From the NCBI RefSeq assembly GCF_014652575.1, contig NZ_BMZB01000006.1, forward strand, positions 1 through 64,000: a DNA stretch of 64,000 bases, in the 5' to 3' direction. The stretch comes from Asticcacaulis endophyticus. Lineage in GTDB: Bacteria > Pseudomonadota > Alphaproteobacteria > Caulobacterales > Caulobacteraceae. Made by a program: the position numbers and the translations under genes. Every line of letters begins with the position of its first letter. Within the stretch, counting starts at the first letter, position 1. This document shows positions 51,316-54,700 of the stretch, piece after piece. The notes beneath the pieces were generated by a model, which saw only the letters and a list, made by a program, of their open reading frames with translations, searched no databases and had not been told where the DNA came from.

Positions 51316-51470
51316 AATTCAGCCGTTATGGCTGTTGTAGTGAGGAATTAACCAAGCTGCGCTAAGGTGGGGGCCGTAGCTATGATCGCCCCGAAGTCCT
51401 GATGTCGGCCTGGCTTTTGCTACAGGGGAGTAGCGATAGAATTATGTACCGTTTTGGGTCAGGATTTGAG

Positions 51471-53909
51471 ATGAGTGGGCGCCTGAAAATTTCCCGCGCC
51501 GGGGTCGAACTTATCAAGAGTTTCGAGGGCCTGCGTCAGGTGGCGGCGAAGCTGCCCGATGGGCGCTGGACGCTGGGTTATGGCCATACGTTTTCAGCCC
51601 GCGAAGGCGCGCGCGTCGGGCCTGAAGATGCCGATGCCCTGCTGCGCTTTGACCTGCTGCCGATTGTTGATGGTATCAACGGTCTGGTGCATCATCCGCT
51701 CAATCAGAACCAGTTCGATGCGCTTGTGTCATTTTGCTTCAATATCGGCATGGACAATTTCGCCCAATCGGTGGTGCTGAAACGCATCAACGAAGGCCGT
51801 CTGACCGAAGCGGCTCTGGCTATGGATAGCTGGAGTTCAGCCGAGTTCAACGGGCAGACCTATGTGCTGGCCCCGCTGATCCGCCGTCGTGCGGCTGAAA
51901 AAAGCCTGTTCCTGACCCCGACCGAAGATGAGGCGACCGCGCCGCAGCTTTCACCGGGTATGGTTGTGCGTCCGGCGGATGACCACCAACCGGTTTTGGC
52001 TCCCGTTCAAACGCCCGTCGCACCGCAGCCCCCAGTACCACAACTCTCAGTACCGCAGCCTGTAGCGTCTGCCGCGCCGGTACTGGATACGCCTTATGGT
52101 GCCCGCGCCGTTGATATTGTCCGTTATCCGCCCGCCTCGACGGTGGCGACCGGCGGCGAAGACGATGTCCCTATCATGAGCGAATCCGTTCAGGCCGCCC
52201 TGATGAAGGCGCAGGCTGAAGCGAAAATGCGTGACGATTTTGAACGTCTTGACGCCGTGCGCGCCGCCGATGACGCCCGTCGCGCTGAGGAGGCACGGCG
52301 TCTGGAAGAGGATGCCCGCCGCGCTAACGAAGACCGCTTACGCGAAGAAGCTATGCGTCAGGCGCAGGCTCTGGCTGCCGCCCGTGTGGCCGAGCAGACC
52401 CGTCTTGAGCAGGAGAGACAGGCTCAAGAGATGGCTAAGGAAGCTGCCCGCCAAGAGTTGATCCGTCAGGAAGCGGCCCGTCTTGACGCTGCCCGTCAGG
52501 AAGTCGCGCGTCTGGAGGCCGCAAAGGCTGACGCGGAACGTATTGAGCGCGATCGCCTGATCGAACAGGAACGCCAGCGTCTGGAGAGTGAGCGCCTCGA
52601 AGCGCAGCGCTTTGAAGCGGCGCGTCGTCTTGAGGCCCAGCGTCTGGAAGCCGAACGACTGGAGGCTATTCGCCAGGAGGCCGCCCGCGAGACTGCGCGT
52701 GCGGAAGCCGCCCGTGCCGAGGCTTTGCGCACCGAAATTGCCCGTCAGGAAACTGAGCGCCGCGAGGCCGAACGGGCCGAACAGGAACGTCTGGCGACGG
52801 AGGCGCGCGCGCAGGAAGTCGCCCGCCTTGAAGCCGCCCGTCTTGAAGCGTTCCGTCAGGAACAGGCCAGACTGGAACAAGAGCGGCTGGCTGAACAAGC
52901 CCGCTTAGAACAAACCCGCCTTGAGCAAGAGCGTTTGGAGCGTGAGGCACAGGCCGCGATTGCCGAGCAGCGCGAACGCGACGCCGAAGCCGCCCGTCTG
53001 AAAACCGAAGCCGATGCCCGTGCCCGCGAACAGGCGGCCGCAGAGGCGAGTGCCGCTGCGGCGGTGGTCGCCACCACAGCTACGCCATCCGCCGAAGAAC
53101 AACAACGCAAGGCCGAGGCCGCTGCGGCACTGATGCGGCTCTATTCGCCCTATGCGTCAGGACTGGGCCAGCCTCTGGCGGGTAAGCCCCTGCCGCAGGC
53201 GAAACCGGTGCCACCTGTGGCGGTAACCCCACGTCCTGAGCCTGCGCCGATCCCGGCCCCGGTTCAGGATATTGCACCGGCTCCGGCCGCCACCCTTCAG
53301 CCGGAGGAGGGGGTCAGGCCTGCGCCTGACCTGACCTTTCAAGATGAAGCTGAGCTGGTCGCCCGGCGCAATCCCTCCAGCGTCGCCCCACCAGTCTTAA
53401 TTGCGCAACCGCCGGTATCTCCGGCTGTGGCCGCCGCATCGGCCTCACCGGGCCTGCACTGGCGTGAGCAATTGAACCGTCCGGTGGCGGCCAGCGCTGA
53501 GGCGTCTTCTGCGGCAATGGCTCCCGTGACTGTGGTTGAAACCTTTGAAGAAGTCCCGGCCCCGGTCTATCGTACCCATGAGGTGACGGAGGAGGCTGCG
53601 GTCGACGACGATGAATGGCTGAGCGACGGTGGCCGGATCTCCATGAGCGTTGATGCCGATGTCGATAGTGATAAGTCGATCTGGAAGATGTTCGCCTCGA
53701 CCCTGGTATGGATCGGCACTTCGGTAGTGGGGCTGGCCGCCATCGGTGGAGCGACCGCCGCCTACTATAAGTCGACCAGTGATGTTGAGCTTCGCGACGG
53801 CACGACCGATTTCAACAGCTTGTCGATTATTCTGGCGGTCGCAGGCATGTTTATGGTGTGTATCTCGGTCTATCTGATCCTGAAACGCCTGGGCGGGTTG
53901 AAGGATTAG
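51471..53909 (+). CDS. spmX: SpmX-like polar muramidase-homologue with long coiled-coil domain
   Basis: 812 residues from the ATG at 51471 (AGGA upstream; frame extends to 51402). A GH24 lysozyme-like domain occupies about residues 5-150 (SRAGVELIKSFEGLRQ, RWTLGYGHTFS, NQNQFDALVSFCFNIG); the Glu of FEGLR is kept but the usual Asp spacing is altered. A Pro/Glu-rich stretch follows, then about 300 residues of Arg/Glu/Ala/Leu repeats (about 237-547, e.g. RLEAQRLEAERLEAIRQ) that read as a long coiled coil, a Pro-rich part and two C-terminal membrane helices (about 739-765 and 783-806). This order is that of Caulobacter SpmX, which marks the stalked pole, interacts with PopZ and the kinase DivJ, and in Asticcacaulis sets stalk position. 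The Caulobacter protein is near 430 residues, so this middle domain is greatly enlarged. Confidence 0.88.
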   Translation: MSGRLKISRAGVELIKSFEGLRQVAAKLPDGRWTLGYGHTFSAREGARVGPEDADALLRFDLLPIVDGINGLVHHPLNQNQFDALVSFCFNIGMDNFAQSVVLKRINEGRLTEAALAMDSWSSAEFNGQTYVLAPLIRRRAAEKSLFLTPTEDEATAPQLSPGMVVRPADDHQPVLAPVQTPVAPQPPVPQLSVPQPVASAAPVLDTPYGARAVDIVRYPPASTVATGGEDDVPIMSESVQAALMKAQAEAKMRDDFERLDAVRAADDARRAEEARRLEEDARRANEDRLREEAMRQAQALAAARVAEQTRLEQERQAQEMAKEAARQELIRQEAARLDAARQEVARLEAAKADAERIERDRLIEQERQRLESERLEAQRFEAARRLEAQRLEAERLEAIRQEAARETARAEAARAEALRTEIARQETERREAERAEQERLATEARAQEVARLEAARLEAFRQEQARLEQERLAEQARLEQTRLEQERLEREAQAAIAEQRERDAEAARLKTEADARAREQAAAEASAAAAVVATTATPSAEEQQRKAEAAAALMRLYSPYASGLGQPLAGKPLPQAKPVPPVAVTPRPEPAPIPAPVQDIAPAPAATLQPEEGVRPAPDLTFQDEAELVARRNPSSVAPPVLIAQPPVSPAVAAASASPGLHWREQLNRPVAASAEASSAAMAPVTVVETFEEVPAPVYRTHEVTEEAAVDDDEWLSDGGRISMSVDADVDSDKSIWKMFASTLVWIGTSVVGLAAIGGATAAYYKSTSDVELRDGTTDFNSLSIILAVAGMFMVCISVYLILKRLGGLKD

Positions 53910-53974
53910 CTTGCGCCGTGAGGGGCAAATCAGCTTATGGATGTGACTCAGTAAAGAGTTCCATTGAGCCTGAA

Positions 53975-54700
53975 ATGACCCGCCTTTATCACGACCTTTA
54001 TGAGCGCACCCTGACCGATCTGTGGCCCCATTTGCCGCAGGACATTGAGGGCGGGCGTATCGCAGATCTGGGCTGCCATGACGGGGTGATGAGCGATATT
54101 CTGGTCGCGACCTTTCCCAAATCAAGGGTCTACGGCTTTGGCCAGAGCCGTCAGGGCATGGACCGCGCCCGCTCGCTCAGCAAAGCCCCCTCCTGGGTGG
54201 AAATGGCGCCAAGCGGCTGGGCCAACGAATTGCGCCAGATTGCCCCCGGCGGGTTTGACCTTCTGATCAGCCATGGAGGTGCGGCGATGGGAGATAGCCT
54301 GACCGACATTTCCGGCAGGTTCCGGCCCCATATCAAGGCCGGAGGGCGGTTAATCATTCAGGTGCCGGTGACGCTCAATGGCTGGATGCAGGCGTTTTCA
54401 GGTGGCGTTGCGGGCGCGCAGAACGATCTTAAAACCTATGCACAACTGACGGAAATATTTCCAAAAACTGACTTTGACCTGAAGTTTTGGTCGAGCCGCT
54501 ATATGCAGGTGTTCGATGACCTGACCGATCTGGCCGAACTGGTGATGGCGCAGGCGGCACGGGTCAATGTGGCGCTGCTGGCCCCGACGGTTGAGGATAC
54601 CTATACCCGCCTGTCGGGGGATAACAACGTGTCCGCCACCGCCGATGGCCACGGCTGCGCGGGCCTTGAGCATGTGTTTCTGGTGGCGTGCCGCAGGTAG
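53975..54700 (+). CDS. Class I SAM-dependent methyltransferase
   Basis: 241 residues from the ATG at 53975. The Rossmann motif is IADLGCHDGVMSDIL, followed by VYGFGQSRQGMDRAR and FDLLISHGGAAMGDSL (post-I and motif II regions). The later part (GGRLIIQVPVTLNGWMQAF) is typical of small-molecule methyltransferases. The substrate is unknown. Its stop codon abuts the convergent patatin stop with no spacer. Confidence 0.7.
   Translation: MTRLYHDLYERTLTDLWPHLPQDIEGGRIADLGCHDGVMSDILVATFPKSRVYGFGQSRQGMDRARSLSKAPSWVEMAPSGWANELRQIAPGGFDLLISHGGAAMGDSLTDISGRFRPHIKAGGRLIIQVPVTLNGWMQAFSGGVAGAQNDLKTYAQLTEIFPKTDFDLKFWSSRYMQVFDDLTDLAELVMAQAARVNVALLAPTVEDTYTRLSGDNNVSATADGHGCAGLEHVFLVACRR

Follow-up and report, generated by a model that had tools for sequence, protein, structure and literature searches.

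The primary study of SpmX in Asticcacaulis biprosthecum and A. excentricus is reportedly that of Jiang et al. 2014, which later reviews cover (PMC4460556, PMC5047622). One review describes the intermediate region of SpmX as unstructured and more than 370 residues larger in Asticcacaulis, and states that the residues governing subpolar or bilateral positioning lie in this region or in the membrane domain (PMC4460556). Another account states that the expanded region appears responsible for the differing localisation in A. excentricus and A. biprosthecum (PMC5047622), and a meeting report names a specific C-terminal region as required (PMC4187693). In A. biprosthecum, BacA is brought to the stalk base by SpmX and in turn stabilises it; the two-hybrid interaction needs the C-terminal domain of BacA (PMC12364344). 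In Caulobacter, the SpmX head binds PopZ, oligomerisation needs the middle region, and a 19-residue predicted helix is mentioned (PMC5347347). The disordered region of Caulobacter SpmX forms condensates in vitro (PMC8849385).

The expansion of the middle region in Asticcacaulis is already published, and the gene described here is known in kind. The expanded region bears on how stalk synthesis is moved off the pole, a question of bacterial shape evolution. The present analysis of a 64,000-nucleotide stretch of A. endophyticus DNA (the window) moves the description of this region from a coiled coil or an unstructured segment to a predicted charged helix of pentads with an invariant motif beside it.

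Identity and architecture of the gene

The spmX orthologue of A. endophyticus lies at 51471-53909 on the forward strand of the window. An ATG at 51471 opens an ORF of 812 residues; the longest mechanical ORF begins at 51402, and the alignment of relatives begins at 51471. The top NCBIfam match is LysLocSpmX (NF051871; E 1.7e-63, 215 bits, best stretch residues 1-184), and the next family follows at 1e-27. With 215 bits for the whole protein, the equivalog cut-off of NF051871 (700 bits) is missed. It is also missed by SpmX of A. biprosthecum (221) and A. machinosus (209) and by L011 (207), L086 (258), and L091 (453), and is passed by two of the seven further proteins scanned, both from Caulobacter (725 and 750 bits). 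The model has a length of 430 positions, and the miss probably reflects its fit to the 430-residue short form. Orthology accordingly rests on head similarity, architecture, synteny, and the lost catalytic residue.

The top PDB match is 6h9d, at E 6.5e-76 when the whole protein is the query and at E 2.3e-78 in a second search. The structure record itself reads Lysozyme; we take it to be SpmX, presumably from A. excentricus. It shares 121 of 147 residues with the A. endophyticus head, and its muramidase is identical to L008 and L010 at 147/147 residues. Of 22 loci compared across Asticcacaulis, Caulobacter, Hyphomonas, and further relatives, 20 have mgtE upstream of spmX in the same orientation. 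It is nearby in 19 of them and 1.8 kb off in L016, and is not seen in L035 and L089. In the muramidase tree, the protein stands with A. machinosus inside the Asticcacaulis group (13/13 rows, support 100/100). Judged from these comparisons, the gene is SpmX of an Asticcacaulis species near A. machinosus. The sequence-only reading had called the protein SpmX-like, and NF051871, 6h9d, the upstream mgtE, and the paired membrane helices agree with it. Membership of another GH24 family, which would have spoken against that identity, is ruled out by the best NCBIfam and PDB matches.

The muramidase-like GH24 head comprises residues 1-150 (51471-51920, +). Its Phage_lysozyme domain is the only Pfam domain of the protein (residues 16-143, E 8.2e-33). 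The canonical GH24 catalytic spacing is E-8-D/C-5-T. Glu19 is retained, and Leu28 is found in 20 of the 20 proteins listed at what we take to be the catalytic Asp/Cys position; by this spacing, the catalytic Asp/Cys is lost. By analogy with the Caulobacter work, the head is presumably cytoplasmic, enzymatically inactive, and used in binding. It is followed by a first Pro-rich linker with 20% Pro (residues 151-234; 51921-52172, +). A second Pro-rich part with 17% Pro (residues 566-732; 53166-53666, +) carries the invariant residues W664, R665, Q667, and P671. The muramidase-like domain and Pro-rich part had both been recognised in the sequence-only reading, as had two C-terminal membrane helices, whose absence would have counted against it.

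These helices are present at residues 737-773 and 779-807 (53679-53891, +) in the AlphaFold prediction, and two hydrophobic segments, 740-758 and 786-804, pass the Kyte-Doolittle cut. The second segment alone passes in L002 and L015, and one segment alone in L018. The last residues are KRLGGLKD, and within them RLGGLKD does not vary among 16 aligned proteins.

SpmX of A. biprosthecum and A. excentricus has the same architecture as that of A. endophyticus. In A. biprosthecum (L007), the neighbouring mgtE, the charged block, and the motif are shared as well. Nine short Caulobacter proteins (L016, L018-L024, L046) are alike in their head (54-59% identical), Pro-rich middle, C-terminal membrane helices, and synteny. 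They differ in having only 411-429 residues and in lacking the charged block.

Charged block and invariant motif

The middle of A. endophyticus SpmX is occupied by a charged block, predicted to be helical, at residues 235-538 (52173-53084, +). It is a run of 304 residues without Pro or Gly, in line with the long Arg/Glu/Ala/Leu domain of about 300 residues first noticed there. Charged residues make up 44%, and the composition is 26% Ala, 18% Arg, 20% Glu, 9% Gln, and 8% Leu. The net charge is near neutral (NCPR -0.04), with more acidic Pro-rich flanks (NCPR -0.08). Two open frames overlap the block, at 52338-52898 (-, 186 aa) and 52588-52908 (+, 106 aa), and are likely by-products of its repetitive codons.

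The block occurs in 25 of 25 genomes of the genus, with Pro/Gly-free runs of 131-334 residues (G153 is cut by a contig end). In the first scan, these runs are 131-330 residues in the 15 other full-length Asticcacaulis proteins; L001 ends at a contig edge. Past residue 150, the longest such run in 22 non-Asticcacaulis proteins (L016, L018-L036, L046, L054) is 15-28 residues. In 12 additional family members, some cut by contig ends, the runs have 19-34 residues. No protein read from outside Asticcacaulis shows the charged helix. The earlier suggestion of a lineage-specific change holds at the level of the genus, not for A. endophyticus in particular, and the expansion as such had already been published.

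Apart from spmX itself, the A. endophyticus genome yields a single match at E 1e-3, a distant GH24 sequence that aligns with the head. Across 299 genomes of the order, two matches are found, both Asticcacaulis spmX, with seven candidates scored per genome listed. An origin shared with another gene finds no supporting match in either search. The distant GH24 match (L056; G000:C1:325586-325786) shows 37% identity over residues 69-136 (E 1.2e-5). Its open frame has 232 aa, and it is probably an ordinary endolysin, not a second SpmX.

Charges in the block follow a regular pattern, with an autocorrelation of +0.50 at lag 5 and a period of about 5 residues (z +11.3). The pattern is regular in 12 of the 12 SpmX tested, and z lies between +3.3 and +15.7 for the other 11. 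The main peak is at 5.2 residues in A. endophyticus and near 6 in L005, L008, L010, L011, and L012. Opposite charges at i+3 and i+4 exceed chance: Glu or Asp is followed by Arg or Lys at i+3 in 46 cases against 15 expected (Glu to Arg, z +10.4), and Arg by Glu at i+4 in 26 against 15 (z +3.7). The pair regarded as classic for single helices, Glu followed by Arg at i+4, stays at the chance level (15 observed, 14 expected, z +0.2). Standard detectors of charged single helices use a charge period of about 6-9 residues, and the peak of 5.2 falls outside this range.

AlphaFold, run on 16 Asticcacaulis sequences (mean pLDDT 58), predicts block helices at 238-417 and 428-529 with a break at 416-428. 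The 10-residue pLDDT means in these helices are mostly 75-91, except at the break and the ends. Parts of the muramidase head are below 50, probably because of the shallow alignment, and helices in sequences of this kind may be drawn from propensity alone. The mean helix-propensity cost is 0.27 in the block, compared with 0.39 for an SMC arm and 0.86 for the middle region of one Caulobacter SpmX.

Behind the block lies the motif RKAEAAAALMRLYSPY (residues 546-561; 53106-53153, +), inside a predicted short helix at 540-558 with pLDDT 61-69. It is identical in 16 of 16 aligned proteins and is flanked by poorly conserved stretches. In two overlapping collections, KAEAAAALMRLYSPY is exact in 39/39 rows, a count that leaves out L001 and L058, which end before the motif, and L057, which is A. 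endophyticus SpmX itself. The distance from the block start to the motif is 312 residues in A. endophyticus, 223 in A. biprosthecum, 310-331 in L008, L010, and L011, and 173-350 across species. This span argues against a strictly set length. Two groups of the tree were compared by sequence length: the distance is 235-350 in the group of A. endophyticus (5 rows, support 80/35), and the group of A. biprosthecum has 173-300 (8 rows, support 94/80).

The sister lineages g4, g8, and g10 join Asticcacaulis at 92/94 in the muramidase tree. SpmX of g4 (G025, L086) has 622 residues and that of g10 (G009, L088) has 648; both are also expanded, and the g8 protein is cut by a contig end. A long middle region is thus found outside Asticcacaulis too, and the sister genera represent another route to it. 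Their expansion consists of Pro/Glu/Ala repeats of the EPGAEAL or EAAEPGAEAL type, without the charged helix, and the longest Pro/Gly-free run is 21 residues. In L086, the repeats sit in a region predicted to be disordered, unlike the Asticcacaulis block: AlphaFold (10 sequences, mean pLDDT 44) places residues 141-556 below 50, with one 8-residue helix and none at the motif.

L086 keeps the motif-like AAAAVMSARLFSPYGGG, which the motif profile finds at 14.7 bits, the best decoy reaching 4.7. The same profile finds no Caulobacter, Hyphomonas, or g10 protein above decoys. By eye, the Asticcacaulis, g4, and Caulobacter/Hyphomonas motifs look like one series. Profiles of the Asticcacaulis and the Caulobacter/Hyphomonas motifs fail to recover one another above shuffled decoys, and L086 is not recovered by the Caulobacter/Hyphomonas profile either. 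An outgrowth of the short Caulobacter middle helix (AAAAVxARLxxILP) is therefore not supported by these profiles; the link that they do support is the one between Asticcacaulis and L086.

Readings of the middle region

The reading preferred here is that the first Pro-rich linker connects the head to a single, very long alpha helix that is exposed to solvent and stabilised by its charges. This helix would be built from pentads such as RLEAx and would extend over about 280-300 residues, or about 40-45 nm; the estimate comes from 282 predicted helical residues and an alpha-helix rise of 0.15 nm per residue. It would end near the invariant motif, with the second Pro-rich part and the two membrane helices following. 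As a rod or spacer, it could set the reach and geometry of the head relative to the motif and the membrane, and the motif may be where machinery of the stalk base, for instance the bactofilin BacA, docks. The bactofilin and PopZ homologues of the A. endophyticus genome and the recruitment of BacA by A. biprosthecum SpmX (PMC12364344) speak for this reading. Taken as a whole, this reading of rod and motif stands at an even balance of being right or wrong. It makes the rod, the charge order, and the 16-residue motif separately testable. The KER of CAF-1 is a single helix and resembles the block in having opposite charges 3-4 residues apart and no hydrophobic seam (PMC10335832). It differs in comprising 90 residues and binding DNA (PMC10335832), whereas the block has about 300 residues, a pentad period, and a high Ala content.

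The sequence-only reading had labelled the middle a coiled coil. Such a block would dimerise or oligomerise SpmX by heptad-type packing and scaffold the stalk base, and its richness in Arg, Glu, Ala, and Leu, its predicted helices, and the dependence of Caulobacter SpmX oligomerisation on the middle region (PMC5347347) fit this picture. The two arms of SMC, one coiled-coil protein of the same genome, served as the positive control. Their hydrophobic 3.5-residue period gives z of +7.2 and +4.0; z is -0.4 in the block and lies between -0.1 and -2.1 for 11 further SpmX. Neither a 3.5- nor an 11/3-residue hydrophobic period is found in the 12 SpmX, whether or not Ala is counted. Windows of 42 residues reach p <= 0.05 in 37 of 81 cases for SMC and in 3 of 363 for 11 SpmX; with Ala counted, the figures are 30/81 and 1/363. 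Hydrophobic residues make up 19-22% of the SMC arms and 13-18% of the SpmX blocks. Hydrophobics spaced by five residues would walk round a helix at 100 degrees per residue and therefore form no stripe. The block is helix-like and non-heptad in its pattern and probably not a heptad coiled coil, a candidate rejected here on hydrophobic periodicity relative to SMC; scaffolding by such packing is accordingly rated quite unlikely. A single alpha helix is a candidate state for it.

The region could also be a disordered polyampholyte that drives condensates, in the manner of the disordered region of Caulobacter SpmX with PopZ. The review that calls the region unstructured (PMC4460556) and the condensation of the Caulobacter region in vitro (PMC8849385) speak for this, as does the persistence of the acidic Pro-rich flanks. 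We find it rather unlikely for the block itself, which is free of Pro and Gly, composed of strong helix formers, and predicted as helices, in contrast to residues 141-556 of L086. The sequence-only reading had also suggested phase separation; in Caulobacter this belongs to the disordered region (PMC8849385), whereas the A. endophyticus block is close to neutral and predicted to be helical. A neutral low-complexity repeat, lengthening and shortening by slippage in GC-rich DNA and limited to a loose spacing of domains, would account for the variable distance between block start and motif and for two weak 15-base tandem arrays. Against it, all nine pairs compared have a block dN/dS under 0.3, with values of 0.05-0.26 (some dS saturated, pairs sharing sequences), the block is present in 25 of 25 genomes of the genus, and its charge pattern is regular in the 12 SpmX tested. 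The enrichment of 5-residue indels is also weak, at 15/39 in the block versus 6/47 in the Pro-rich parts (p 0.011), or 15/32 versus 6/19 among indels of at least 4 (p 0.38). Neutrality is thus judged hardly probable. By raw count over the nine pairs, 160 of 391 changed block residues keep their charge class, a point against the charge-stabilised helix.

An extension of the preferred rod reading, offered as a very improbable conjecture, is that the co-option of SpmX for stalk placement in Asticcacaulis went with the replacement or invasion of a disordered middle by a new, long, natural pentad helix. The helix would gauge the reach between a polar or membrane landmark and the docking motif, and its length and charge order would help to decide between a polar, subpolar, or bilateral stalk. 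If this were true, the helix would have about three times the length of the longest single helix given in PMC10335832.

Flanking elements and genome context

Caulobacter spmX is under TacA/sigma-54 control. In the window, a sigma-54-like -24/-12 element, CGGCCTGGCTTTTGC, is recognised by pattern at 51406-51420 (+), 65 nt 5' of the start codon. As a raw pattern count, such elements occur within 150 nt upstream of 24 of 27 spmX genes at variable distance; within that span they are absent in L005, L012, and L014.

On the 3' side, a methyltransferase-like ORF, below the Pfam cut-off, occupies 53858-54700 (+), and its start codon, GTG, lies within the last part of spmX. A. machinosus has a 79% match 3' of spmX, and matches of 24-26% occur in five Caulobacter loci. 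No match at E 1e-8 is found in seven other Asticcacaulis loci, of which L005 ends soon after spmX.

The A. endophyticus genome has one match to PF10691, which we take to be the PopZ family, and one bactofilin match. In Hyphomonas, a bactofilin acting together with an M23 endopeptidase is described (PMC10945521). The single bactofilin of A. endophyticus (L084) shares its locus with a 388-residue ORF that is M23 endopeptidase-like by eye.
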